Source: Nitrogeniibacter mangrovi (lineage in GTDB: Bacteria; Pseudomonadota; Gammaproteobacteria; Burkholderiales; Rhodocyclaceae). From it: DNA of 64,000 bases. The notes beneath the pieces were generated by a model, which worked only from the letters and a program-made list of their open reading frames with translations, searched no databases and had not been told where the DNA came from. How positions within the stretch are numbered: the stretch's first letter is position 1; each line of letters starts with the position of its first letter. Where the stretch lies: contig NZ_CP048836.1 of NCBI RefSeq assembly GCF_010983895.1, positions 1,302,001 to 1,366,000 of the forward strand, read 5' to 3'. The translations under genes and the position numbers were made by a program. This document shows positions 12,225-41,699 of the stretch, piece after piece.

Positions 12225-12974
12225 TCACGCGGCGAAACTCTGCACCAGCGAGCCGATGAGCAGCGTCCAGCCGTCCACCAGCACGAAGAGCATGATCTTG
12301 AAGGGCAGCGACACGATCACCGGCGACATCATCATCATCCCCATGGACATGAGCACCGAGGCGACCACCATGTCGATGATCAGGAAGGGGATGAAGACGA
12401 TGAAGCCGATCTGGAACGCGGTCTTCAGTTCCGAGGTGACGAAGGCCGGCACGATCACCTTCATGGGCAGATCCTCGGCCTTGTCCACCGGCGGCACCTT
12501 GGCCATGCCGGCGAACAGGTTCAGGTCCGGCTCGCGCACCTGCTTGAGCATGAAGGCCTTCATGGGCACCGCGGCGCGCGTCGTCGCCTCCTGGAAGGTG
12601 ATGGTGTCCTGGGTCAGCGGCAGGTAGGCGTTGTCGTACACCTGCTCCAGCGTCGGCCCCATGATGAAGAAGCTCAGGAACAGGGCCATGCCGATGATGA
12701 TCTGGTTGGGCGGCGAGGTCTGCGTGCCCAGGGCGTGGCGCAGCAGCGAGAACACGATGATCAGCCGGGTGAAGCTGGTCATCATCAGCAGCACCGCCGG
12801 CAGGAAGGTCAGCGAGGTGAGCAGCACCAGCGTCTGCACGCTGAGGCTGTAGGTGGTGCCGCCGCCGCCCGAGGGCGTGCCGGTGATCGCCGGCACTGCC
12901 TGGGCGAAGGCCAGCTGCGGCAGCAGCCACAGCAGCGGCAGCGCAAGCCGGCGCATCAGGGCGCGATCAACCAT
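12225..12974 (-). CDS. fliP: Flagellar type III export protein FliP
   Basis: 249 aa. A cleavable signal peptide (residues about 1-24, ending AFA) is followed by the FliP core with [37 protein letters not shown] and the C-terminal membrane pair [24 protein letters not shown]. It forms the pentameric part of the export gate. The start overlaps the fliO stop by 8 bp. Confidence 0.97.
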
Positions 12975-13416
12975 GCTTGCGCGCCTCCATCATCTGCTTG
13001 AGGCGGCCGGCGAAACCGCCGGTCTCGGGGGTCGGGCCGGCCGGCGCCTGCAGGCCCGGCAACTGGGACGGATCGAGGGTGTGCAGGGTATTGACCCGGC
13101 CCGGTGCGACGCCGAGCACCAGCACCTTGTCGGCCACCTCCACCAGCACCACGCGCTCGCGCTGGCCCACCGGCGTGGCACCGAGCACCCGCAGCCCGCG
13201 GGCGCCGCCGCGCGGGGCGCTGATGCGCTTGAGCAGCCACAGGCAGGCCACCAGCACCGCCACCACCACGAGCAGCCCGAGCAGCATCTGCCCCAGCGAG
13301 CCGAGCAGATCGCCGCCGCCGACGCTCGAGGGCGGCAGCGTGCGCTTGGCGACATCGTCGGCCGCCTGCGCGAGGGCAGGGGCGAACGACAGCAGGATCA
13401 GGGAGCGATACAGCAT
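12967..13416 (-). CDS. fliO: Flagellar biosynthesis protein FliO
   Basis: 149 aa, the usual short and weakly conserved FliO: a signal-like N-terminus ([13 protein letters not shown]), a single transmembrane segment (about residues 41-63, [17 protein letters not shown]) and a cytoplasmic domain with [30 protein letters not shown]. It assists FliP assembly. First gene of fliOPQR; the genes that would normally precede it (fliN, fliM) are almost 9 kb away, beyond a metal-homeostasis gene block. A palindrome shared with other flagellar promoters lies about 73 bp upstream (13489-13505). Confidence 0.92.
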
Positions 13417-13488
13417 CGGGGGCCTCGAGACCGTTTGGTACGTGCTCGCAGCGTAGCCCGGCGGCGGTCAAGTCGAGGGCGGGAACAG

Positions 13489-13505
13489 GCGGCAAAAATT
13501 GCCGT
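13489..13505. promoter_or_regulatory. Palindromic site GCGGCA-N5-TGCCGt upstream of fliO
   Basis: GCGGCA (13489-13494), AAAAT, TGCCGT (13500-13505), 73 bp upstream of fliO. Same arm sequence and 5-bp spacer as sites at 31252-31268, 33628-33644 and 33649-33665, all at flagellar genes. Inferred binding site of the FleR-type regulator. No clear sigma-54 promoter could be located between it and fliO. Confidence 0.6.
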
Positions 13506-13558
13506 TATTCGGACGCTGGCCCAAGCTGGCGTGGCCGTGCGCCCCGTTCCACGGCGTC

Positions 13559-13578
13559 GGTTGGACTTCAGTCCGACC
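13559..13578. repeat. REP-like hairpin between doxX and fliO
   Basis: GGTTGGAC-TTCA-GTCCGACC, an 8-bp stem with one G-T pair, of the type found as scattered extragenic palindromes in proteobacteria. It lies 23 bp past the doxX stop and has no T-run, so termination between the buf operon and fliO is uncertain. Confidence 0.5.
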
Positions 13579-13601
13579 TACGGCGACTGGTGGTGTGCGC
13601 G

Positions 13602-14084
13602 TCACGACCGCGTGGCGGCATCCCGATCGGTCTGGCGCCCCAACAGCGTGTCGAGCGACAGTCGGCCCGGGCCGAAGGCGACCAGCACCAGCAGCAGGGC
13701 ACCCCAATAAAGGTGGTCGTTGATGGCGGCGGGGCACTCGAACTGGAACAGGGCCGGATAGCTGATCACCGCCATGGCATTGACCGCGAACAAGCCCAGC
13801 GCCGCGGGGCGGGAGAACAGCCCCACGAACAGCAGCGCCGGGAACACCAGCTCGCCGAAGGTACCCGCCACCGCCGCCACCTCGGGCGGCAGCACCGGGA
13901 CGGAATATTCGTCGCGGAACAGGAACAGGGTGCTGTCCCAGTCGTTCAGTTTGGTCAGGCCAGCCTTGAAGAACTGCCAGCCCACGTAGAGCCGGATGGC
14001 GAGGGCGAGCAGGCTGCCGCCCCAGCGGGTCAGGCGCTCGTCGCAGCAGGTGCTCAGGCGGTGGAGGCGGATCAGTGCGTTCAT
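13602..14084 (-). CDS. DoxX family membrane protein of the bufferin operon
   Basis: 160-aa four-helix integral membrane protein (DoxX/DoxD-like: LAIRLYVGWQFFKAGLTKLNDW, then FGELVFPALLFVGLFSRPAALGL and YWGALLLVLVAFGP). The ATG at 14084 overlaps the bufC stop in an ATGA, so it is the fourth gene of the buf operon. DoxX proteins are frequent partners of DUF692/DUF2063/DUF2282 genes; a role in membrane redox or delivery for peptide modification is plausible but unproven. A longer open frame runs back through bufC and is rejected. Confidence 0.88.
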   Translation of the reverse strand: MNALIRLHRLSTCCDERLTRWGGSLLALAIRLYVGWQFFKAGLTKLNDWDSTLFLFRDEYSVPVLPPEVAAVAGTFGELVFPALLFVGLFSRPAALGLFAVNAMAVISYPALFQFECPAAINDHLYWGALLLVLVAFGPGRLSLDTLLGRQTDRDAATRS

Positions 14085-14869
14085 GGGGTGATGTCCTTGT
14101 CGTGGGAATGGTCCGGGTGCGCGATGAGCAGGCCGGCGAGCAACCAGCGGGGCAGGGCCTGTCCGGGATCGAAGCCGGGTTCGGCGGTGAGCCCCGTTTC
14201 GAGGGCCGCGCCGAGCGGCAAGCCCCGGGCGATCGCCGAGAGCGCGGCATGTTCGCCGGCGCTCAGCGGCTGGACCTGCGCGCGCCAGCGCGGCCGGCAC
14301 ACGGCCACATGGCAGGCCCGCGCGAGCGGGTCGGGCCAGGGCGGGCCGTCGGGTTGATGGGCCAGCCACAGGGCGTCGATGGCCCACTCGGAGCGCATCA
14401 GGGCGACGGCGGGGTGCAGGTCGAGGCGGATGCCGTCGAGGCCGGCGACGTCGAGCGCCGCGAGCCACGGCGCGTCGATGGCCGGGGCGTCGGCGGCGCC
14501 GTGAGCGACATGCAGCGCCCATTCCAGGCGCGCCATGTCGGGCAGATAGGGGTAGTCGGCCACCGGGGCGAACCCGGCCAGGAAGTCGGGCAGTGCCGCG
14601 CCGAAGCGGTTCAGGTCGCCTTCCGCGTGGGGGTGGGCACGGCCGAATGCGCGCGCCATGGCGCGGAAGAAGTCATCGCCCAGCATCTGCCGGATCACCG
14701 GGCAGGCGTTGCCCAGGGCGCGATCCCAGTGGGCGGTGAGGTTGCCGCGGTAGAGCGCGAAGCGCCGCGCAGCGAGCCCGGCGTCGCCCCGGAACAGTGC
14801 CGCCGGTGTCTCGTCGGCGTCCAGCAGGCCGGCGGCAAAGCGGGTCTGCAGCTCGGCCAGCTCAGACAT
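14081..14869 (-). CDS. bufC: DUF2063 protein, MNIO partner (BufC/MbnC-like)
   Basis: 262 aa. The N-terminal DUF2063 domain (about residues 5-95) shows the family features [24 protein letters not shown] and [18 protein letters not shown]2063 proteins bind the DUF692 enzyme and present the precursor peptide to it, as MbnC does for MbnB in methanobactin synthesis. The gene overlaps bufB by 8 bp and doxX by 4 bp, indicating coupled translation. Symbol assigned by family and synteny with described bufferin operons. Confidence 0.9.
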
Positions 14870-15710
14870 GGGTGGCCTCCGTCGCGAGCACCACGGTACG
14901 CACCTCGCGGGCGCGTGCCGCCTCGGCGAGCAGCACCGGCAGCGCAGGCAGCTCGGTGTCCCACTCGATCAGCGTCGGCACGTCGCCGAAGCGCTCGAGG
15001 CTGGCGCGATACAGCGCCCACACCACCTCGGCCACCGGCGCGCCATGGTGGTCGATCACCGCATCCTCGGTGACCCGATGGCCCGCCAGATGGATCTCGC
15101 CCACGGTGCCGGGCCGGATCGCCTCCATGGCCGCGCGGGCCGCCTCGCCATGGTTGCATTCGTTCACGTACAGGTTGTTCACGTCGAGCAGCACGCCGCA
15201 GCCGGTGCGGCGCGCCACTTCGGCGAGGAATTCGGTTTCTGCGAGGGTGTCGGCGGCAAAGCGCAGGCCGGTGGACACGTTCTCCAGCAGGAGGTGGCCG
15301 AGCACCGCCTGGGCCTGATCCACGCGGGCGCACACCAGGTGCAGGGCCTCGGTGGTCAGCGGCAGGGGCAGCAGGTCGTTCAGGTGCCGGCCGGGCACGG
15401 CGGCCCAGCACAGGTGTTCGGAGATCAGCGCCGGTTCGACGCGGCGCGCGAGGGTACGGATCCGGGCCAGGTGGGCAGCGAAGTGGGCCGCGCTGGCCGA
15501 GCCGATGCCCAGGCCCACGCCATGCAGGCTGAGCGGGTAGTCGGGCCGCAGGCGTTCGAGCACGTGCAGGTCCCAGCCGCCGGCGGCGAAGTAGTTCTCG
15601 CTATGGACCTCGAGCCAGTCGACGACGGGGCGCTGTGCGAGGAAGTCGCGATAGTGCGCCGCGCGCAGACCGACGCCGACGCCGCGAAGCGGATGAGCGG
15701 TGAATGCCAT
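14862..15710 (-). CDS. bufB: DUF692 multinuclear non-haem iron oxidase (BufB/MbnB-like)
   Basis: 282-aa TIM-barrel enzyme of the MNIO family. Metal-ligand candidates follow the family pattern: EVHSENYF (E37-N39 region), [10 protein letters not shown] (His63), SEHLCW (Glu98/His99), LLENVS (Glu143), [10 protein letters not shown] (Asp176, Asn179), IHLAGH (His207), DHHG (His221/222) and LIEWDTELP (Glu249). Members oxidise cysteines of precursor peptides into heterocycles; in bufferins these are copper-binding thiooxazoles. The start at 15710 ([16 protein letters not shown]) is the conserved family start; the long upstream frame overlaps bufA antisense to its codons and is rejected. It lies 43 bp after bufA across a strong hairpin. 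Confidence 0.95.
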
Positions 15711-15718
15711 GATGTGCC

Positions 15719-15743
15719 GGGGCGCCGCCGGAGGGGGCGCCCC
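15719..15743 (-). promoter_or_regulatory. GC hairpin between bufA1 and bufB
   Basis: Perfect 8-bp inverted repeat GGGGCGCC (15719-15726) / GGCGCCCC (15736-15743) with a 9-nt loop, filling most of the 43-bp gap between precursor and enzyme genes. There is no T-run. It probably acts as a partial attenuator or 3' stabiliser giving much more bufA1 than bufBC mRNA. Confidence 0.6.
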
Positions 15744-15753
15744 GTCCGCTCGC

Positions 15754-16017
15754 TTACTGCTTGCCGCCCGGCTTGAGGCTGCCGCCCATGTCGGCGCAGG
15801 TGCCCTTGGCCACGTACTTCCACTCTTTCGGGTCGTTGTCCCGGCTGGCCTGGCCAGCGCAGGAATGGGTGCCGGTGACGCTGGCGCAGTCGTTGGCGCC
15901 GGCCTTGGCGATGCCGAAGCATTTTTCCTTGCCGGCGTCCGCCGCATGGGCGGGCAGGGCACTGGCGGCGGCGACGCCGGCCAGGGCGGCGGTGATGAGG
16001 ATTTGACGCGTGTTCAT
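15754..16017 (-). CDS. bufA1: Bufferin-type precursor peptide (DUF2282, BufA1)
   Basis: 87-aa secreted precursor. Residues 1-25 form a Sec signal peptide ([20 protein letters not shown], cleavage after AHA). The core has four cysteines (33, 44, 53, 74) in [22 protein letters not shown] and GTCADMGG, and the family segment [13 protein letters not shown]. This is the DUF2282 pattern of bufferins, RiPPs in which a DUF692 enzyme modifies cysteines to give a copper-chelating periplasmic peptide. AGGAG 7 nt upstream of the ATG at 16017 fixes the start over an upstream in-frame ATG. First gene of bufA1-bufB-bufC-doxX. Confidence 0.93.
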
Positions 16018-16093
16018 GAGGGTTCTCCTGTGGGTCTCGGGGGGCAAACGCAGAGTGCGGTTGGGCGGCGAACGGTGCGTCGTTCGCTTGCCA

Positions 16094-16126
16094 GATGAGA
16101 CCCAGGAGGGGTGTCAGGTCTTACAG
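16094..16126 (-). promoter_or_regulatory. Candidate ECF-type promoter of the buf operon
   Basis: On the minus strand TGTAAGACC (ending 16117) and GTCTCAT (starting 16101) are separated by 15-16 nt, about 85 bp upstream of bufA1. GTAA...GTCT-type element pairs resemble ECF sigma promoters (bufferin operons of other bacteria can be under ECF control). No sigma or anti-sigma gene is in the window, so this is tentative. Confidence 0.3.
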
Positions 16127-16170
16127 CGTCATCGGAAAAAATGCGATCGGGGTGGGGTGATGAGGCGGGT

Positions 16171-16728
16171 TCAGATGGCCTTGCCGCGCGCGAAACAGGC
16201 CTGCAGCAAGGCACGCATGTGCTCGGCACCGAGGGCTTCGACGGTCTCGATGTTGCGTGCCGGGATGTTCTCCGGATCGGGATAGTTCATGACCGCCGCC
16301 TCGAGGCTGGCCTCGCGGATCAGGTGCAGCATGGGGTAGGGCGAGCGGTTGGTGGTGTTCTCCACGTCGTCGGCTTCGGTGCCGGCGAACTGGTAGTCCG
16401 GATGAAAGCTGGCCACCTGCAGTTCGCCGCTCAGGCGCATCTGCGACAGAAGCACGTCGGCCACGTCGAGGAACTGGTTGTAGTCGTCGAAATCGGTCAG
16501 CGCCTGCGGGTGGATCAGCAGCGTGGTCTCGACCGCGTCGTTGTCCTGCAGCCACTGCAGCTCGCGCTCCAGATCGTCGACGAGGGTGTCCGCGTCGTCG
16601 GCCTCGGAGACCACGAAACGGATGCGATCGCGCACCAGCTCGCGCTTGGCGAAGGGGCACAGGTTGAGGTCGACGACCACGGTCTCGACCCAGTGGCGGG
16701 TGGCGGCGATGACGGCTTCGGGAGTCAC
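16171..16728 (-). CDS. DUF1415 family protein
   Basis: 185-aa soluble protein of the DUF1415 family: VVDLNLCPFAKRELV near the start, LLIHPQALTDFDDYNQFLDVAD in the middle and HLIREASLEAAVMNYPDPENIPARNIETVEALG at the end. Function unknown; the conserved LCPFA cysteine may be functional. The GTG at 16728 is chosen because it overlaps the mscS stop (GTGA), showing coupling, and gives the family N-terminus VTPEAVIAATRHWVE. The 3' end is 45 bp from the proposed buf promoter, same strand. Confidence 0.9.
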   Translation of the reverse strand: MTPEAVIAATRHWVETVVVDLNLCPFAKRELVRDRIRFVVSEADDADTLVDDLERELQWLQDNDAVETTLLIHPQALTDFDDYNQFLDVADVLLSQMRLSGELQVASFHPDYQFAGTEADDVENTTNRSPYPMLHLIREASLEAAVMNYPDPENIPARNIETVEALGAEHMRALLQACFARGKAI

Positions 16729-18062
16729 GGATTCGGGTCCAGGTCGGGCAGCGCTCGGCCGGGCGGGGCGGGCTTGAGATGCACGTCGCGCTGCGGGTAG
16801 GGGATGGTGATGCCGGCGGCCTTGAAGGCGCGCCAGATCGCCAGGTTGATGTCGGTGCGCACGTTGCCGATGCCGTTTTCCGGATCGGCGATCCACACCC
16901 GCAGCTCCAGCTCGATGCCGTTGTCGCCGAAGGCGAGCAGACGGGCGGTCGGCACCGGATCGCCGAGCACCCGCGGCGAGGCCTGGGCGGCCGCCTCGAG
17001 CAGCGCGATGGCCTGCTCCGGATCGTCATCGTAGCTGATCTGCACCGGCAGGCGGATGCGGGTGTTCTTGTCGGTGTAGCTCCAGTTGATCACTTCCGAG
17101 GTGATCAGGTTCTCGTTCGGGATCAGGCGTTCGACGCCGTCGCGGTCGCGCACCACCACGTAGCGGGCGCGCAACTCCTGCACCCAGCCGTACTTGCTGC
17201 CGTCGGTGCCGACCGAGATCACGTCGCCGGGCTTGATGGAGCGGTCCAGCACCAGGATGAAGCCGCTGATGAAGTTGCTGGTGATGCGTTGCAGGCCGAA
17301 GCCGATGCCCACCCCGAGGGCGCCGCCGAACACCGCGAAGGTGGTCAGGTCGATGCCGACCGCGTCGATGGCCACCAGGAACGCCAGCGCGATCAGGAAC
17401 ACCCGCGCGAACTTGGCGAAGGCCACCTGCAGCGAGGGCGTCATGTTGGGCGAGGCGCGCATGCGCCGCTCGATCACGCCGGAGATCCAGAAGGCGAGGG
17501 TCAGCAGCAGCGCGATGAGGCCGAACAGCTTGATCGTGGCCAGCAGCGAGATGCGGGTCTCGCCCATGGTGAAGGCCACCGCGTCGAGCGCCGCCGCCAC
17601 CGCCGGCAGCCAGCCGAGCAGGTGCAGCGCCACCGCCGACCAGATGCCGATGACGAAGAGGTTCTCCCAGGCCTTGAGCGCGCGGGTGACGCGAAAGCCC
17701 TTGCGCAGCAGGTAGACGCCGATGCGGATGGTCGCCAGCGAGGTGAGCAGCGGCACCGCCACGTCGAGCACCGGCGTGGCCTGGGGTCGGGCCTGCAGGG
17801 CGATGCGGGCGACGAACACCACCACCAGCATCGACACCGGCCACAGCACGCGCTGCAGGCTGCGGATGGCGAGGTGATGGAGGCTGCCCTGGCGGGTCGC
17901 CTCGGCGCGTCGGGTCAATGCCCGGCGCGCCAGATGGTGCGCGACCAGCGCGAGCACGCCGGCCAGCACCAGGGCGAGCAGTTCGTGCTGCACCTCGGCG
18001 CGGGCGAGCTGCTCACCCACGAGGGGGAGCTGTGCGATCAGGGTTTCGAAAGCGTCGGGCAT
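16725..18062 (-). CDS. MscS family mechanosensitive ion channel
   Basis: 445-aa inner-membrane channel with about six hydrophobic segments in residues 25-245 and the MscS core: the pore-lining helix region VFGGALGVGIGFGLQRITSNFISGFILVLDRSIKPGD, then the beta domain with VQELRARYVVVRDRDGVERLIPNENLITSEVINWS. It opens under membrane tension or mediates small-solute efflux. The start at 18062 gives MPDAFETLIAQ; GGAG-like bases precede it. It is followed by DUF1415 with a 4-bp overlap. Confidence 0.92.
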   Translation of the reverse strand: MPDAFETLIAQLPLVGEQLARAEVQHELLALVLAGVLALVAHHLARRALTRRAEATRQGSLHHLAIRSLQRVLWPVSMLVVVFVARIALQARPQATPVLDVAVPLLTSLATIRIGVYLLRKGFRVTRALKAWENLFVIGIWSAVALHLLGWLPAVAAALDAVAFTMGETRISLLATIKLFGLIALLLTLAFWISGVIERRMRASPNMTPSLQVAFAKFARVFLIALAFLVAIDAVGIDLTTFAVFGGALGVGIGFGLQRITSNFISGFILVLDRSIKPGDVISVGTDGSKYGWVQELRARYVVVRDRDGVERLIPNENLITSEVINWSYTDKNTRIRLPVQISYDDDPEQAIALLEAAAQASPRVLGDPVPTARLLAFGDNGIELELRVWIADPENGIGNVRTDINLAIWRAFKAAGITIPYPQRDVHLKPAPPGRALPDLDPNP

Positions 18063-18086
18063 GGGAGGAGTGTACTGCGAGCGGGC

Positions 18087-18890
18087 TCAGCGCGAGCGGG
18101 TCGCGAGCCGGTCGAGGCGCAGCCGCTCGCGCTCGTCGAACAGGCGCCGGCTCGCCGCCATGACCGCGGCCATGGTACCGAAACCGGTGCCCACGGTGAT
18201 GGTGAACATGATGAGGATCTGGTACTTGACCGCCACCGCCGGCGCCGCACCGGCGAGGATCTGGCCGGTCATCATGCCCGGCAGGCTGACGATGCCGGCG
18301 GCGGCCATGGAGTTGACGATCGGGATCAGGCCACTGCGCATGGCGTCGCGGCGGGCGTCGCCGACGGCCTCCTGCCAGCGTGCGCCGAGCATGAGCCGGT
18401 TCTCGATGAGCGCGCGCTGGCGCCACACCGCGTCGGTGAGCCGGTCCAGGCCGAGGGCGACGCCGGTCATGGTGTTGCCCAGCATCATGCCCAGCAGCGG
18501 AATGGCGTATTGCGGCTCGTACCAGGGCGCGGGTTGCACCACCGCCACCAGGGTGAGCACGGTGACGCTGAAGGCCGAGATGAACATCGACAGGGTGCCG
18601 ATGCCGAAACCCCAGCCGCCGGCGAGCCGGTACTTCTGCCGGGCATTGACCTCGCGCCCGGCCATGAGCAGCATCACCAGCGCCATCAGGGCGATCCACG
18701 GCAGGGCGGCGACCGCGAACAGGGCCTCGAGCACCACCCCGATCAGGCTCAGCTGCACCACCGTGCGCAGCGCCCCGACCAGCACGGTCCGCCCCATCTC
18801 CAGGCGCAGCGCCCAGGTGCTGGCGGCCAGCGCGATCACCAGGGTGGCGGCGAGGCCGAGCTGGCCGACGGACAGGTCGATGACGTTCAT
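18087..18890 (-). CDS. fetB: FetB/YbbM-type ABC transporter permease
   Basis: 267-aa membrane protein of the UPF0014 family, permease of the FetAB (YbbLM) exporter that moves iron out of E. coli. Family marks: ALRTVVQLSLIGVVLEALF, AGREVNARQKYRL, LLGMMLGNTMTGVALGLDRL, and GLIPIVNSMAAAGIVSLPGMMTGQILAGAAPAVAVKYQI. About seven hydrophobic segments. The start ATG overlaps the fetA stop (ATGA). It lies 24 bp upstream of mscS on the same strand. Iron as substrate is from family knowledge; other metals or thiols are possible. Confidence 0.9.
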   Translation of the reverse strand: MNVIDLSVGQLGLAATLVIALAASTWALRLEMGRTVLVGALRTVVQLSLIGVVLEALFAVAALPWIALMALVMLLMAGREVNARQKYRLAGGWGFGIGTLSMFISAFSVTVLTLVAVVQPAPWYEPQYAIPLLGMMLGNTMTGVALGLDRLTDAVWRQRALIENRLMLGARWQEAVGDARRDAMRSGLIPIVNSMAAAGIVSLPGMMTGQILAGAAPAVAVKYQILIMFTITVGTGFGTMAAVMAASRRLFDERERLRLDRLATRSR

Positions 18891-19519
18891 GCCACCTCCG
18901 CGAGCGTGTGACCGTCGATGCGCAGGTGGTGGTCGGCAACGCGCTCGACCTGGGCGCGGTCGTGGCTCACCCACAGCGTCGGCCAGCCGTGTGTGCGGAT
19001 CAACTCGAGCAGCCACTGCTCGACCTGTCGGGTCGTCTCGGCGTCGAGATTGGCGGTCGGCTCATCCAGCAACAGCGCCTGCGGGCCATGGGCGACGGCG
19101 CGCAGCAGCGCCAGGCGCTGGCGTTCGCCGGAGGACAGGCGGCTGATCTGCCAGTCGGCCACCGCCGGCTCGAAGCCCAGCGGCGCCCAGTCCACCCGGG
19201 CCGGATCGGGCAGGTGCTCGCCCACCGTGTCGGCCCACCACTGACTGTCAGCGGGCACCAGCATGACGCGCCGGCGCCACTGGTGCGCCGGGGTGCGGGA
19301 CTGGCAGGTCGGCCCCAGCCACACCTCGCCATCGTGCGCGTCCAGATCGGCCAGGGCCCGCAGCAGGCGGCTCTTGCCCGAGCCGGACGGGCCGGACAGG
19401 GCGGTGACGCGGCCGGGGGCGATGCTGAAGTCGGTGGGCTGCAAGGGGCCGACCGCGACCTGGACCACGCGCAAGGCCGCTTCGGTGTCGGTGGGCAGGT
19501 CGGGATGGGATGCCGTCAT
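18887..19519 (-). CDS. fetA: FetA/YbbL-type ABC transporter ATP-binding protein
   Basis: 210-aa ATPase: Walker A GPSGSGKSRL (about residues 43-52), ABC signature LSSGERQRLALLRA, Walker B ALLLDEPTANLD and the H-loop WVSHDRAQ. Short linker insertions match YbbL/FetA. The ATG at 19519 is taken because the longer frame runs into the divergent regulator promoter region. Operon fetA-fetB, probably continuing into mscS and DUF1415 (gaps of 24 bp or overlaps). Confidence 0.9.
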   Translation of the reverse strand: MTASHPDLPTDTEAALRVVQVAVGPLQPTDFSIAPGRVTALSGPSGSGKSRLLRALADLDAHDGEVWLGPTCQSRTPAHQWRRRVMLVPADSQWWADTVGEHLPDPARVDWAPLGFEPAVADWQISRLSSGERQRLALLRAVAHGPQALLLDEPTANLDAETTRQVEQWLLELIRTHGWPTLWVSHDRAQVERVADHHLRIDGHTLAEVA

Positions 19520-19588
19520 GGTCCGATGATACGGTGTCGCAAACGCCCGTGGCGAGCCGTTCATGCACGATTCGTCTACTATCGAAGC

Positions 19589-20272
19589 ATGAGAGATATG
19601 CCTCACATCGCGCCGGTGGCGGCCTTGATCGGCGATGCCGCCCGCGCCGACATGCTCACCGCGCTCATGGCCGATCGCGCCCTCACCGCCACCGAGCTGG
19701 CCATGGTGGCGGGCGTGACCCGGCAGACCGCGAGCGCGCATCTGGCCAAGCTGTGCGAGGCGGGGCTGGTGATCATGCAACGCCAGGGGCGGCATCGCTA
19801 TTTCCGCCTCTCGGGGCACGATGTGGCGGTGCTCATCGAGGCCTTGATGGGGGTGGCCTTTCGCACCGGCGCGGTGAGGCCGCGTGCCCCGGTGCGCGCG
19901 CCGGCCCTGCGCAAGGCGCGGCTGTGCTACGACCACATGGCCGGCGATCTGGCCGTGGCCGCCTTCGAGGCGATGCTCATGCGCGGCTGGTTCTGTGCCC
20001 GTCCGGGCGAACTGGCGCTGTCGGGATTCGGCCGGACGGCGCTGGTGGCGCTGGGTGTCGATGCCGCGGGGCTCGAGGCCGGGCGGCGCGTGACCTGCCG
20101 CATGTGCGCGGACTGGGGCGAGGGGCGCCAGCATCTGGCCGGCGCCCTGGGGGCGCGTGTGCTCGATCATGTGCTCGAGGCCGGGTGGGCGGTGCGCGAT
20201 CCCGATTCGCGGGCGCTGCGCTTCAGCGCCGCGGGGGAGGCCGCGTTCCGCTCGGCGTTCCTGCTCGACTGA
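19589..20272 (+). CDS. ArsR-type winged-helix transcriptional regulator
   Basis: 227 aa. The N-terminal winged HTH (about residues 8-85) shows ARADMLTALMADRALTATELAMVAGVTRQTASAHLAKL with a wing RQGRHRYFRLS; a C-terminal domain of about 110 residues has VTCRMCADWGEGRQHLAGALGARVL, typical of the larger ArsR proteins. The paired Cys (CxxC-like CRMC) could sense metal or redox. Divergent from fetAB with a 69-bp intergenic region, so fetAB is its likely target. The ATG at 19589 is used; an ATG three codons later is possible. It abuts the next gene tail to tail. Confidence 0.85.
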   Translation: MRDMPHIAPVAALIGDAARADMLTALMADRALTATELAMVAGVTRQTASAHLAKLCEAGLVIMQRQGRHRYFRLSGHDVAVLIEALMGVAFRTGAVRPRAPVRAPALRKARLCYDHMAGDLAVAAFEAMLMRGWFCARPGELALSGFGRTALVALGVDAAGLEAGRRVTCRMCADWGEGRQHLAGALGARVLDHVLEAGWAVRDPDSRALRFSAAGEAAFRSAFLLD

Positions 20273-20515
20273 TCAGCGCCGCCGGAACACCAGCTCCAGT
20301 CCGAACCAGAGCACGCCCACGATCGCGCCGAGGCCGCCGGCCAGGGTCCCGAACATGGCCAGCAGGGCGACCCGGGTGGCACCGCCGTCGGCATCGCCGA
20401 ACTGCAGGGTCAGCCACAGGGGCAGGGCGCTGAGGGTTCCCAGCACCAGGCTGGTGACCAGGATCTTGATGCCGGTGCGCGCCGGGGAGCGATAGAAATT
20501 GACGATGGCCTTCAT
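20273..20515 (-). CDS. Small two-helix membrane protein, unknown
   Basis: 80 aa with two predicted transmembrane segments (about residues 16-36 and 47-73; ALLAMFGTLAGGLGAIVGVLWFGLELVF) and a basic C-terminus RRR. No family recognised. Its stop abuts the stop of the ArsR-type gene without a gap. A longer frame to 20686 would cross the terminator of the next gene and is rejected. The ATG at 20515 lacks a strong ribosome binding site. Confidence 0.65.
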   Translation of the reverse strand: MKAIVNFYRSPARTGIKILVTSLVLGTLSALPLWLTLQFGDADGGATRVALLAMFGTLAGGLGAIVGVLWFGLELVFRRR

Positions 20516-20588
20516 GACGGGTGCCGACCGAGGTGCGTGAGTTTCCACCATAGCAAACCGGCTCGCCCGTGTGACTTGACCCAGGTTC

Positions 20589-20616
20589 AAAAAAAAACGC
20601 CGCCCGAAGGCGGCGT
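20589..20616 (-). terminator. Rho-independent terminator of the PEP-CTERM gene
   Basis: 8-bp stem ACGCCGCC (20597-20604) / GGCGGCGT (20609-20616) with a CGAA loop, followed on the minus strand by nine T. It lies 39 bp past the stop of the PEP-CTERM gene. Confidence 0.92.
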
Positions 20617-20654
20617 GTTTCACGTGCCCGCGCGCGGGCGGCCGGCGACGCCGA

Positions 20655-22049
20655 TCAGGCGGCGCGACGGCGGCGGGCGATGGCACCCACCAGGCCGAGA
20701 CCGGCCAGCAGCATGGCGTAGGACTCGGGTTCCGGCACGGCGGAGACGCTGATCTTCATCAGACGGTCGTTGTCGCTGCCCGGATGCTGGATGTTGAGGT
20801 AGGCGGTGTTCGGATCGTAGGGATCGAAGAACAGGCCGGTGGGCTCGGCGCCGGCCACCTGAAGGGCGGCCCAGCGCTTGACGCCTTCGGCCACGCCGTC
20901 GCCGTCGCTGTCGATGACCTGCCAGATGTCGGCGTTGGGCACGCCCTGGTCCTCGACGATGTAGAGGTTGCCGTCGGCGTCGATGGCGATGTTGTCCGGG
21001 CTGGTGAAGTCGGAGCCGACCGCCAGGCCGGTGGCCACGTCGATGGTGTTGCGGGTCACCAGTTCGGTGATCGACATGTCGGACAGGTCCACCGTCCAGG
21101 TGGTGTGGGTGCCGGTGGCGTTGAAGGCGATGGCCTCGTGACCGTTGCCCAGGGTGAACACCTCCATGTCCTCCGGACGGTTGAAGGCGGTCGCGCCGGC
21201 GGCGTCGGCCAGCGTGCGGCCGTCCTGGCCGGCGCCGCTCACGCCGATGTCGACCCAGTTGAAGCTGCCGCCGACATCGGCGTTGCTGCCGGTGCCGACC
21301 TGCAGGGCGTAGGTGGTGCCGTTGGCGAAGAAGTCGTCACCGTTGGCGGCGTTGGGGTTGGCGGAGACGAACTTGTAGAAGGAGCCGCCGCTGTTCTCGT
21401 CGATGAAGTAGAAGTTGTTGGCGCTGTCGAAGGCCAGGCCTTCGTGCGACACCAGCGGCAGCATGGTGTTGCGCTGGACCAGATTGCCGTTGCCGTTGGT
21501 CAGGGTGGTGGCGGTGGCGGTCACCGGGTTGGTGACTTCGAACAGGCGGCCGGTGGCCGAACCGGCGACCCCGTTGAAGTTCTCTTCGCCGGTCATCCAG
21601 CCACCCCAGGGGGCCCAGCGCGAGGCGTCGCCACGCTGCCAGTTCTGGGTGCCGACCGCGACGATCGTGGTGGTGGCGCCGGTGAGTTTGTCGTAGCGCA
21701 GCGCGCCGGAGCCGGTGTTGGCGCCCGACTGGTTGCTGGGCTCGAAGGGCATGAACAGGTAGCGGCCCTGATCGGCACCGGTGCGGTTGGTGTCGATCAT
21801 GTCCCAATAACGGCCGACGTTGATGTCGGACAGGCTGCCCACGGTGCTGCGCGACGCCAGCGTGCTCTGGGTGACGGTGATGCCCGGGGCGGTCGACAGC
21901 AGCAGGGCCTGGGTGGCTTCGTCGGCGACCGACACGGCCGACGAGGGCGCGGTGAGCGGATCGAGTTCGTCGAAGAGGGTGTTGCCGGCAGCGAACGCCT
22001 GGGCGGAGGCGAACACGCCGAACACGGCGAGGGCGAGCGGTTTGACCAT
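20655..22049 (-). CDS. PEP-CTERM-anchored beta-propeller-like secreted protein
   Basis: 464 aa. Signal peptide about 1-21 (LALAVFGVFASAQAFA). The body resembles the DUF839/PhoX-like propeller proteins: YWDMIDTNRTGADQGRYLFMP, WAPWGGWMTGEENFNG, MLPLVSHEGLAFDSANNFYFIDEN and SPDNIAIDADGNLYIVEDQG; DSDGDGVAEG may bind calcium. The C-terminus (about 438-464) is a PEP-CTERM sorting signal: VPEPES, a hydrophobic helix, then RRRR. Such proteins are processed by exosortase (EpsH/XrtA type) and exported to the surface; no exosortase is in this window. Function unknown; possibly a phosphatase-like or matrix protein. Confidence 0.88.
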   Translation of the reverse strand: MVKPLALAVFGVFASAQAFAAGNTLFDELDPLTAPSSAVSVADEATQALLLSTAPGITVTQSTLASRSTVGSLSDINVGRYWDMIDTNRTGADQGRYLFMPFEPSNQSGANTGSGALRYDKLTGATTTIVAVGTQNWQRGDASRWAPWGGWMTGEENFNGVAGSATGRLFEVTNPVTATATTLTNGNGNLVQRNTMLPLVSHEGLAFDSANNFYFIDENSGGSFYKFVSANPNAANGDDFFANGTTYALQVGTGSNADVGGSFNWVDIGVSGAGQDGRTLADAAGATAFNRPEDMEVFTLGNGHEAIAFNATGTHTTWTVDLSDMSITELVTRNTIDVATGLAVGSDFTSPDNIAIDADGNLYIVEDQGVPNADIWQVIDSDGDGVAEGVKRWAALQVAGAEPTGLFFDPYDPNTAYLNIQHPGSDNDRLMKISVSAVPEPESYAMLLAGLGLVGAIARRRRAA

Positions 22050-22199
22050 GGCTACAATCCTATGTTTGGCTAGGTGGGGTTGTGGAACGGTCGATCGGAA
22101 CGAGGCGTGTTCCGACCGCCGCCAAAGCTAGCCTGCGGATGTAACTGGGCGATGAACCGGGGTGTAGTCCGTTGGTATGATGCGCGCCGCAAAAGCGAA

Positions 22200-22226
22200 G
22201 GGCCGCGGCATGGCTGCCGCGGCCCC
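22200..22226 (-). terminator. Terminator-like hairpin after fliN
   Basis: 11-bp inverted repeat GGGCCGCGGCA (22200-22210) / TGCCGCGGCCC (22216-22226), followed on the minus strand by TTCGCTTTTGC. It lies 21 bp past the fliN stop and separates the fliLMN transcript from the PEP-CTERM gene. Confidence 0.75.
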
Positions 22227-22246
22227 GATGGATCGGTGCTCGCGCG

Positions 22247-22771
22247 TCAGTGGCGCAGTTTGCGCATGCGTTCGGCGGGCGTGATGATGTCGGTCAGGCG
22301 GATGCCGAACTTCTCGTTCACCACCACCACTTCGCCCTGGGCGATGAGGGTGCCGTTGACGAGGACGTCCATGGGCTCGCCGGCGAGCCCGTCCAGTTCC
22401 ACCACCGAGCCGTGCGCCAGCTGCAGCAGGTTGCGGATCGACAGCTTGGTGCGGCCCAGCTCCACGGTGATCTGCACCGGGATGTCGAGGATCATGTCCA
22501 GCTCGGCGTTGCCGCCGGCGCTGCCGCCTTCGGCGCCGAAGTCCGGAAACAGCTGGCTGGCGGGCTTGGCCTGGTAGGGCGAGTCGGCCGAATCGGCGGC
22601 GGCCTGCAGGTCGGAGGCCACCTGTTCGGCGTCGGCCTGCTCCTGCATGGCGGCGGCCCAGTCGTCCTCGGCCGCGGCGTCGCCGCCACCCTCGGTGTCG
22701 GCCTGTTCCTGCATGGCGGCAGCCCAGTCGTCGTCGGAGACCTGGTTTTCGTCGGTGTCGGTATCAGCCAT
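22247..22771 (-). CDS. fliN: Flagellar motor switch protein FliN
   Basis: 174 aa, longer than the usual 110-140. The C-terminal SpoA domain (about 90-170) is typical: LDIPVQITVELGRTKLSIRNLLQLAHGSVVELDGLAGEPMDVLVNGTLIAQGEVVVVNEKFGIRLTDI. The acidic N-terminal arm carries the block DDWAAAMQEQAD twice (residues 14-25 and 36-47), a tandem duplication. It forms the lower C-ring with FliM. The start overlaps the fliM stop by 8 bp. In relatives fliOPQR follows directly, whereas here a terminator hairpin and unrelated genes follow. Confidence 0.96.
   Translation of the reverse strand: MADTDTDENQVSDDDWAAAMQEQADTEGGGDAAAEDDWAAAMQEQADAEQVASDLQAAADSADSPYQAKPASQLFPDFGAEGGSAGGNAELDMILDIPVQITVELGRTKLSIRNLLQLAHGSVVELDGLAGEPMDVLVNGTLIAQGEVVVVNEKFGIRLTDIITPAERMRKLRH
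22631..22737 (-). repeat. Tandem duplication within fliN (66-bp period)
   Basis: Two near-identical 41-bp copies at 22631-22671 and 22697-22737 differ by a few bases and encode the DDWAAAMQEQAD block twice. In-frame, so the protein stays intact. Confidence 0.85.
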
Positions 22772-23774
22772 GGTTTTCTCCCGGTGGCGGGGGCTCGTTG
22801 GTGTCTTCGGGCGGAATCATGCGCTCGACGCGGATGGCGTACTGCCCGTTTTGCACGCCGTACCGCCCCTCGAGGACGGCCACGCCGTCGACCTCGGCCC
22901 GGATGGCTTCGGGGACCTCGATCGGAATGACGTCGCCCACGCGCATGTTGACGATGTCGCGCAGGGTGACGGTGGCTTGACCCAGGTTGACCGTCAGCTC
23001 CACGGGGGCCGACTTGATCTGCTTGGTCATGGTGCCGATCCAGCGCTTGTCCTGGGTGATGTGGTCGCTCTGCATGGTGGAGTAGAGCGTCTCGCGGATC
23101 GGTTCGAGCATGGAGTAGGGGAAGCAGATGTGCATGTCTGCCTGGGCCCCGCCCAGTTCGAGGGAGAACGCGGTGGAGACCACGATCTCCGAAGGGGTCG
23201 CGATGTTGGCGAACTGGGAGTTCATCTCCGAGCGCAGGTACTCGAGCTTGAGCTTGTACACCGGCGCCCAGGCACGCTCGTATTCGGCGAACACCGTCTC
23301 GAGCATGCCCATGATGATGCGCTGTTCGGTGGCGGTGAAGTCGCGCCCCTCGACCCGGGTGTGGAAGCGGCCGTCGCCGCCGAACATGTTGTCCACCACC
23401 AGGAACACGAGGTTGGGATCGAAGACCACCAGCCCGGTGCCGCGCAGCGGCCTGGCGTTGACCAGGTTGAGGTTGGTGGGCACCACCAGGTTGCGCACGA
23501 ATTCGCTGTACTTCTGCACCTTGATCGAACCGACCGAGATCTCGGCGTTGCGGTGCATGAAGTTGAACAGGCCGATGCGCAGGTAACGGGCGAAGCGCTC
23601 GTTGATGAGCTCCATCGTGGGCATGCGCCCACGGACGATGCGTTCCTGCGTGCCGAGGTTGTATGGGCGAACGCCGCCTTCGTCGCCGTCATCGGCGTCG
23701 CTTTCCTCGGTTTCCCCGGTCACGCCGCGCAGCAGCGCGTCGACTTCGTCCTGGGAGAGAAAATCGGCTGACAT
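22764..23774 (-). CDS. fliM: Flagellar motor switch protein FliM
   Basis: 336 aa, normal length. The N-terminal CheY-P binding segment LSQDEVDALLRGV, then the CheC-like middle domain (about 50-230) with GTGLVVFDPNLVFLVVDNMFGGDGRFHTRVEGRDFTATEQRI, and the C-terminal SpoA domain. Switches rotor direction on binding phospho-CheY. It follows fliL by 23 bp and overlaps fliN. Confidence 0.97.
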   Translation of the reverse strand: MSADFLSQDEVDALLRGVTGETEESDADDGDEGGVRPYNLGTQERIVRGRMPTMELINERFARYLRIGLFNFMHRNAEISVGSIKVQKYSEFVRNLVVPTNLNLVNARPLRGTGLVVFDPNLVFLVVDNMFGGDGRFHTRVEGRDFTATEQRIIMGMLETVFAEYERAWAPVYKLKLEYLRSEMNSQFANIATPSEIVVSTAFSLELGGAQADMHICFPYSMLEPIRETLYSTMQSDHITQDKRWIGTMTKQIKSAPVELTVNLGQATVTLRDIVNMRVGDVIPIEVPEAIRAEVDGVAVLEGRYGVQNGQYAIRVERMIPPEDTNEPPPPGENHG

Positions 23775-40481: not shown

Positions 40482-41420
40482 TCAGAAGTTGGCGCGCAGG
40501 TCCATGCCAGCATACAGCGAGGCGACCTGGTCGGCATAGCCGTTGAAGGGCAAGGTCGGGCGCTTGAAGAAATCGCCGATGCGGCGCTCCTTGGCCTGGC
40601 TCCAGCGCGGGTGATCGACCTTCGGGTTCACGTTGGAGTAGAAGCCGTATTCGTTCGGTGCCGCATCGTTCCATGCGGTGTGGGGCTGCTTGTCGGTGAG
40701 GCGGATGCGCACGATCGACTTGGCGCTCTTGAAGCCGTACTTCCACGGCACCACCAGACGCAGCGGCGCGCCGTTCTGGTTCGGCAGCTCGTCGCCATAC
40801 AGGCCCACCGCCATCAGAGTCAGCGGATGCATGGCCTCGTCCAGGCGCAGCCCCTCGGTGTAGGGCCAGTGCAGGATCGGCAGGCGGGTCATGATCTTCG
40901 GGTCGTAGAGGGAGGTGAATTCCACGTACTTCGCGCTGCCCAGCGGATCGACCTGCTTGAGCAGGGCCGAGAGCGGAAAACCCACCCAGGGGATGACCAT
41001 GGACCACGCCTCCACGCAACGCAGCCGGTAGATGCGCTCCTCGAGCGGGGCCAGCTTGATGATCTCGTCGATGTCGAAGGTGCGCGGCTTGCCCACCAGC
41101 CCGTCCACCGTCACCGTCCACGGCCGGGTCTTCATCACGCCGGCGTTTTCCGCCGGGTCGGACTTGTCGGTGCCGAACTCGTAGAAGTTGTTGTAGCTGG
41201 TCGCGTCCTTGCGGGGCGTGAGCGCCTCCATGGTGCTCAGCGGGCTCTTGAGGAACGGGCCGGGCAGTTGTGACTCGGCCGCGAGCAACCGCCCCGGGCG
41301 GGCCAGGGTGAGGCCGGCCGCGCCCAGGCCGGCGAGCTTCAGAAACTCGCGGCGGCGCGCGTACAGCTCGGGGGCGGTGATCTCGGAAGGGCGGATATCG
41401 TCGGGGCGTTTGATGAGCAT
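40482..41420 (-). CDS. msrP: Periplasmic methionine sulfoxide reductase MsrP (molybdoenzyme)
   Basis: 312 aa. Twin-arginine signal [19 protein letters not shown] (about 23-41), then the sulfite-oxidase fold with the Mo-ligating Cys in [20 protein letters not shown]. The tail ends [19 protein letters not shown]. It repairs oxidised methionine in envelope proteins. The ATG at 41420 follows the family N-terminus [26 protein letters not shown]; an upstream ATG at 41450 is weaker. It lies next to mog, which serves its cofactor. Confidence 0.95.
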
Positions 41421-41699
41421 GTCGGTTCTCGTTCGGGTGGCTTCCCCCATTGGACCGATCGGGCCCGCGCTTTCTTACACACGGGGGCCGATCATGTTCG
41501 CAATCGGGGTTGCAGGGTTGACCGGTCGCGCCGGGCATCGTTCGGCCGTGGGAGGTCGCCGTCCCACGGGGGGTGAGGATCGCACGGACGACCCGGTTGC
41601 CCGTCATCGGGTTTCGCAATCGGCGCGACAGCGACAATCAATGGGGGATTGGGCTACACTTGAGCGCTTGTTTTTACACCAGTTTTTTCAGGAAGCCCG
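41421..41699. other. 279-bp divergent msrP/aroG intergenic region
   Basis: Contains no gene. Upstream of aroG the stretch around 41652-41690 is AT-richer (GGCTACACTTGAG, then TTTTTACACC and TTTTTTCAGGAAG), with a TACACT box near 41653 as a possible -10 and AGGAAG as the aroG ribosome binding site. No attenuator could be identified. Confidence 0.45.

Follow-up and report, generated by a model that had tools for sequence, protein, structure and literature searches.

A bufferin operon of the Buf1 family, buf1, lies on the minus strand of a 64,000-nucleotide stretch of the Nitrogeniibacter mangrovi genome (NZ_CP048836.1, 1,302,001–1,366,000; hereafter the window, in which position 1 is the first letter), and is very probably one of five units of a small regulon controlled by an extracytoplasmic function (ECF) sigma factor, its peptide acting as a periplasmic copper buffer. 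As predicted from a shared promoter-like site, the units would be buf1 itself, a second bufferin operon (Buf2) that includes msrB, an msrP gene, an ArsS-type radical S-adenosylmethionine (SAM) gene, and the gene pair encoding the sigma factor and its DUF3379 partner. A single ECF circuit would in this way join bufferins of two families to the repair of methionine sulfoxide in the periplasm and to a radical SAM gene. A preliminary description of this DNA had recognized the four genes of buf1; the Buf2 operon, the common ECF-type site, msrP with its own site, and the insertion of buf1 beside fliO are new.

The four genes follow one another in the order bufA1 (15754–16017, 87 amino acids), bufB (14862–15710, 282 amino acids), bufC (14081–14869, 262 amino acids) and doxX (13602–14084, 160 amino acids), all with intact reading frames. 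A gap of 43 bp separates bufA1 from bufB, and the coordinates confirm the overlaps claimed in the preliminary description, 8 bp between bufB and bufC (14862–14869) and 4 bp between bufC and doxX (14081–14084). Its family assignments also hold. The precursor matches DUF2282 (PF10048, 88.4 bits, cut-off 22.4), the enzyme matches DUF692/MNIO (MbnB_TglH_ChrH in Pfam, 323.4 bits, cut-off 25), both far above the curated cut-offs in the profile search that had been proposed as a check, and they are accompanied by a DUF2063 partner (PF09836, 80.3 bits, cut-off 27.2) and a DoxX-family membrane protein (PF07681, 58.4 bits, cut-off 23.6). BufB additionally passes the more specific NCBIfam model MNIO_BufB (NF050167, 349.4 bits, cut-off 310), while BufA1 has no match among NCBIfam models. 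The precursor begins with a Sec-type signal that, judged by eye, ends in AHA, and its four cysteines (33, 44, 53, 74) recur without exception in all 25 aligned precursors. Nine BufB positions (H63, H99, E143, D176, N179, H207, D220, H222, E249), which we take to be the iron ligands of the enzyme, are conserved in all 102 aligned homologues, and the BufB sequence matches the solved MNIO structures 3bww, TglH and MbnB. An AlphaFold2 model of BufC (pLDDT 92.5) finds as its nearest folds in the PDB, over the whole length, TglI (8hi7, E 3.3e-6) and NGO1945 (3dee, E 3.2e-3), both MNIO partner proteins (PMC12452194). By Pfam match and modelled fold, BufC thus falls among DUF2063 partners with an RRE-type second domain (PME-type 1). 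Gene order is that of the bufferin operons described in PMC12452194, and with it gene content, signal, cysteines, MNIO residues and partner fold agree with the published operons, bearing out the bufferin layout first suggested. The gene set is not due to chance, and buf1 is an ordinary member of the Buf1 family.

The case for a regulon begins at the right-hand edge of the operon, which the preliminary description had placed at 16126, one base past a promoter-like site (16125–16098). This ECF-type site, TGTAAG-N17-GGTCT, lies on the minus strand 80 bp before the bufA1 start, and the same sequence stands 59–114 bp before the starts of bufA1 and bufA2, the precursor gene of Buf2, both in the genome of the window and in that of one sister species (G008). 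In the slightly relaxed form TGTAAG-N17-GGTCY it occurs exactly five times in the 4.24-Mb genome of the window, as compared with a single occurrence of the reversed pattern, preceding bufA1 by 80 bp, bufA2 by 60 bp, the arsS gene by 57 bp, msrP by 31 bp and the ECF gene by 22 bp. By a hand estimate only about 4% of random sites would lie that near a start and in the correct direction, so that the position of all five is not attributable to chance. The arsS product, encoded at position 2546835 of the genome's single contig (C1), scores 447 bits against TIGR04167 (cut-off 300). Within the window a second site (TGTAAG-N17-GGTCC, 41452–41479, minus strand) precedes the msrP-like gene (40482–41420, minus strand), whose product resembles the YedY-type methionine sulfoxide reductase (Oxidored_molyb, PF00174, 118.8 bits, cut-off 24), making this gene a putative member of the same regulon as buf1.

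The site had been derived from bufA upstream regions and was therefore tested in the sister species. Here 61 genomes were examined, ten of the genus and 51 outside it. TGTAAG-N17-GGTCT occurs 59 times in the eight sister species other than G008 as compared with three occurrences of the reversed pattern, and 67 times as compared with four in all ten genomes of the genus. A rule for choosing starts placed one no more than 120 bp from 63 of the 67 sites; the remaining four were taken as three msrP genes with a start placed too far inside and one misframed gene of the secreted NPCAAK-repeat peptide discussed below. Named from a scan of one member per family, the genes following these sites belong (counted by genomes) to the arsS family in nine, ECF, msrP and msrA in seven each, DUF302-type secreted proteins, a glutaredoxin-domain protein and an AraC-cupin protein in six each, the NPCAAK peptide in seven plus the misread copy (eight in all), and bufA1 and bufA2 in two each, leaving three single genes, one of them msrB. 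In nine of the ten genomes the ArsS-type radical SAM gene seems to belong to the regulon. Further afield, in 24 bufA upstream regions from the relatives and the window, the strict [GT]GTCT form was present in four, all from genomes bearing the ECF factor (that of the window, G008, G016 and G022), and a looser form in nine. The looser form also precedes bufA at 23 of 34 other betaproteobacterial loci, where the strict form occurs once; neither was found in 38 Burkholderiaceae loci, nor in four gammaproteobacterial loci with a readable bufA. A CGAA-type promoter like that of Caulobacter sigmaF was also considered, and dropped in favour of TGTAAG-N17-GGTCT; it appeared in two of 100 bufA upstream regions (102 precursor matches minus two without a start codon by rule) against 0.38 expected, with none in the window.

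The gene following the fifth site encodes sigma-70 regions 2 and 4, as in ECF factors, and is itself followed by a DUF3379 gene (121.2 bits in the genome of the window, 116 in G008, cut-off 33.2). A motif H-x3-C-x2-C is typical of zinc anti-sigma factors, and the DUF3379 protein carries it; a regular expression finds the motif at 12 of 15 ECF loci, including that of the window's genome, and misses it in three. This points to a candidate anti-sigma role for DUF3379. Nine of the ten genomes of the genus hold the ECF gene, the exception being G007, which is 86% complete, and in all nine it is preceded by its own copy of the site, exact in seven and with one mismatch to GGTCT in the genome of the window and in G008. 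Outside the genus the ECF gene (E up to 1e-20) was found in six of 51 genomes, all six among the 25 that have DUF2282, a co-occurrence with a hypergeometric chance, calculated by hand, of about 0.01. In three of these (G033, G052, G058) a DUF2282 gene lies 0.5–1.6 kb from the ECF gene, and the exact site precedes the ECF gene in G022, G016 and G014 and the ECF-adjacent bufA in G033.

The second bufferin operon resides elsewhere in the genome, where profile search detected two MNIO matches and one DUF2282 match. The Buf2 MNIO (3034451–3035236 in genome coordinates; NF050167, 377.3 bits, cut-off 310) has upstream of it a BufA2 precursor with six cysteines (NF050166, 93.4 bits, cut-off 60), and downstream a DUF2063 gene (PF09836) followed by SelR/MsrB (msrB). 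MNIO genes occur in two of the ten genomes of the genus, that of the window and G008, with two copies in each, and DUF2282 is likewise present in two of the ten; no MNIO was found in the other eight, two of which (G004, G007) are 86% complete. Among all 61 genomes DUF2282 is present in 27, counting one (G024) whose match has an internal stop, and MNIO in 32. MNIO relatives are also carried by 350 of 72,556 plasmid records, the best among the matches listed being that of Burkholderia glumae at 61%.

Several observations weigh against this picture and temper its details. As to the operon, BufC and DoxX score below the cut-offs of the NCBIfam HvfC (32.9 bits, cut-off 142) and HvfX (51.9 bits, cut-off 80) models, respectively, and the structure model of BufA1 is of low confidence (pLDDT 64.4, pTM 0.44) and uninformative on a disulfide. 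As to the site, it was read off bufA upstream regions, so that its match there is not independent, as the sister-species test is, and GGTCT was loosened to GGTCY only once the ecf and msrP sites were known. Outside the genus, the ECF factors of G052 and G058 are 48–51% identical and no exact site was seen at their ECF loci, and the strict site is absent from the bufA copies of G014 (near match only), G033 contig 36 (two copies) and G052 contig 4 (two copies). Finally, the genome of the window contains several ECF-like factors (five matches), and we infer which of them reads the sites.

How the product might work can be outlined from the regulon partners and from characterized relatives. Oxidised methionine is the substrate that MsrP- and MsrB-type enzymes repair. 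Since such partners accompany the bufferins, a single signal, Cu(I) or an oxidant, would be expected; since the DUF3379 protein has the H-x3-C-x2-C motif, the trigger would probably be attack of either on its thiols, upon which this zinc-type anti-sigma factor would release the ECF factor. In published systems the central Buf1 cysteines are converted to thiooxazoles by BufB-BufC, the outer ones form a disulfide, and the peptide, exported through Sec, binds copper (PMC12452194, PMC13097082). By homology to Caulobacter bufferin 1, the product of buf1 would likewise be a periplasmic copper buffer bearing thiooxazoles. BufA1 would be synthesized with its Sec signal and, while still in the cytoplasm, have its central pair of cysteines oxidised by a BufB-BufC complex, the likeliest products being 5-thiooxazoles; after export the two outer cysteines would form a disulfide. 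The periplasmic bufferin would then bind excess copper, and DoxX would assist from the membrane. Judging by the genes that the sites precede, copper binding would probably be induced along with oxidative repair.

Sharing all of this except the main function is an alternative in which the regulon serves chiefly in defence against reactive chlorine species or thiol oxidants, the peptide and the Msr enzymes acting on periplasmic oxidation and copper binding being secondary. We consider it rather unlikely. In its favour, the partners are msrP and msrB, joined in the sister species by msrA and glutaredoxin-domain proteins, and in Haemophilus influenzae HOCl, MsrAB and a DoxX-like gene are connected through RpoE2 (PMC7907618). 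However, bufferin 1 binds Cu(I)/Cu(II) and aids growth in excess copper (PMC12452194), the related gig operon is copper-induced (PMC10304878), and Caulobacter sigmaF-dependent genes are not induced by agents generating reactive oxygen species (PMC3511200). An improbable explanation is that a classical copper regulator of the CueR or CopR type, or read-through from upstream, drives the operon and the TGTAAG site is incidental. The upstream genes DUF1415 and mscS do share the strand of buf1, and between 13380 and 16300 no terminator-like site was found on the minus strand (one weak candidate on the other strand is matched by about as many in shuffles); in Cupriavidus metallidurans, moreover, deletion of rpoQ, the ECF gene adjoining gig, raised rather than lowered gig expression (PMC10304878). 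Yet the same interval holds no sigma-70-like promoter (no search was made for binding sites of copper regulators), and an incidental site would have to recur before bufA1 and bufA2 in two genomes, stand before stress-type genes at all five of its positions genome-wide, and outnumber its control 59 to three in the sister species. That buf1 is a silent insertion, or one redundant with Buf2, yielding an unmodified peptide is very improbable, for although it occurs in only two of the ten genomes of the genus, the gap being without it in the other eight, its frames are intact, its conserved residues are kept, and G008 retains the same site with a BufB 70% identical.

Returning to a copper buffer within an ECF regulon, control of bufferin-type operons by ECF factors is already known, given precedents in Caulobacter, Sinorhizobium meliloti, C. 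metallidurans and H. influenzae. The precursor encoded by one Caulobacter gene, CC2907, is presumably of the Buf2 family. In Caulobacter crescentus/vibrioides a four-gene DUF2282-DUF692-DUF2063-DoxX operon (CC3254–3257) is under the ECF factor sigmaF, which also controls a DUF2282-DUF692-DUF2063 operon (CC2907–2905, CC2907 being listed as DUF2282) and the YedY gene CC2748 (PMC3511200). SigmaF and its anti-sigma factor NrsF therefore represent the closest precedent, one ECF factor governing a YedY/MsrP gene together with two operons of bufferin type; arsS and msrB are additions in the genome of the window. The machinery differs: the Caulobacter site is GTAACC-N16-CGAA and NrsF is a DUF1109 protein, whereas here the site is TGTAAG-N17-GGTCY and the partner is DUF3379, and NrsF (PF06532) gave no match in the genome of the window in a search in which the Caulobacter positive control matched. 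Because Caulobacter uses a different sigma/anti-sigma pair, this grouping of targets may have come about more than once, an indication that copper buffering goes together with the repair of oxidation. The gigPABT operon of C. metallidurans, like buf1, is betaproteobacterial; gig operons are termed bufferin clusters in PMC12452194, and this one is induced by copper and gold and has as neighbours an anti-sigma gene and rpoQ, which encodes an ECF factor (PMC10304878). Its sigma gene is thus adjacent, whereas that of buf1 lies 2.1 Mb away, and in that source gig dependence on RpoQ is not demonstrated. In S. meliloti the RpoE7 operon SMb20530–20527 contains DUF692 and DUF2063 genes with an ECF factor and an anti-sigma gene (PMC6180224), its promoters reading TGTAAC...CGAA as opposed to TGTAAG...GGTCT here. 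RpoE2 of H. influenzae controls MsrAB and a DoxX-like gene and is paired with a cytoplasmic anti-sigma factor of 67 amino acids, HrsE (PMC7907618). The oxazolins (Hvf) of that species are also made by an MNIO enzyme and a partner protein (PMC12452194), from a precursor that, unlike BufA1, has EGKCG repeats. A literature search, outside which most subscription papers lay, found no description of the ECF-DUF3379 pair and its site, of DUF3379 alone or with an ECF sigma factor, or of a small ECF circuit of this type, RpoQ/RsqA not having been compared with the pair.

Buf1 sits between DUF1415 (16171–16719, minus strand, the part used as query, its start being unsettled; PF07209, 238.8 bits) and fliO (12967–13416, minus strand; PF04347, 82 bits), which is followed by fliP, fliQ and fliR. 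This position is shared by G008, while in the other eight genomes of the genus the gap is without buf genes. DUF1415 adjoins fliO or buf1 in all ten, in two with another gene before fliO. Six sister species have DUF1415 and fliO as neighbours about 0.13 kb apart, and in G004 and G007 the gap holds an opposite-strand gene of about 0.55 kb (L133, 5425–6446; L134, 7971–9009), taken from its sequence as a phasin, so that the gap seems to have accepted different cargo. Ahead of fliO all ten genomes retain, with minor variation, a stretch resembling GAATAGCGGCAATTTTTGCCGC, which indicates that the fliO leader is unbroken and that buf1 lies upstream of it. The interval from doxX to fliO showed no terminator-like site, making read-through into fliOPQR possible. 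The BufB tree had 102 rows, each an MNIO frame that was long enough, drawn from the 80 loci retained out of 389 relatives and from stretches of the related genomes. There the window clusters with Chromatiaceae (its identity to Lamprocystis being 79%), and next with G008 and two Zoogloeaceae metagenome-assembled genomes (MAGs). Transfer of buf1 from Chromatiaceae into this genome is disfavoured, as the Chromatiaceae, with one gammaproteobacterial MAG, are nested inside the clade formed by the Zoogloeaceae MAGs, G008 and the window; the tree reads better as a transfer out of this lineage, its direction being unproven. Within the genus the genome of the window and G008 group together (97.2/99) and the root is weak (79.5/61), leaving gain versus loss of buf1 undecided.

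In all eight species of the genus without a detected MNIO, the site is followed by a gene for a secreted NPCAAK-repeat peptide, of which the G004 copy matches nothing in Pfam or NCBIfam and for which no literature was found. A search of G008 gave no significant match (best E 0.40). One may tentatively imagine, though we would not rely on it, that the ECF-DUF3379 circuit uses two interchangeable periplasmic cysteine buffers, the repeat peptide being the unmodified counterpart of bufferin. The eight MNIO-less species would then drive the NPCAAK peptide, which no detected MNIO could modify, and the two bufferin species, in which no ECF-driven copy was found, would have two bufferin operons bearing the site instead. 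As the two bufferin-bearing genomes group together, the swap was possibly a single event. The sister species would constitute a natural comparison of bufferin and Cys-repeat peptide after one site, in which the value of a costly modification is testable. A strict exclusion of the peptide from bufferin genomes is not wholly true, since the genome of the window encodes a distant NPCA-rich secreted protein of a second type (4096746–4097024, L229, E 2.2e-4), in another context and without the site.

Loci encoding NPCAAK-repeat proteins are L227 (G004), L221 (G001) and L231 (G002). A related protein of G002 has NPCAAK repeats flanking on either side a CxxCH-containing segment, which in our own reading of the sequence would be a cytochrome c. 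Before fliO, a palindrome-like GCGGCAATTTTTGCCGC stands in the nine other genomes of the genus and, slightly altered, in the window (13488–13506); it could represent a hairpin or the binding site of a regulator. Across 12967–23774 of the window a block separates fliM-fliN from fliO-fliR, holding a PhoX/PEP-CTERM gene, a helix-turn-helix gene and genes for an ATP-binding cassette ATPase and a UPF0014 membrane protein (FetAB-like) in addition to mscS, DUF1415 and buf1; the flagellar genes of the sister species are similarly split, by other contents.

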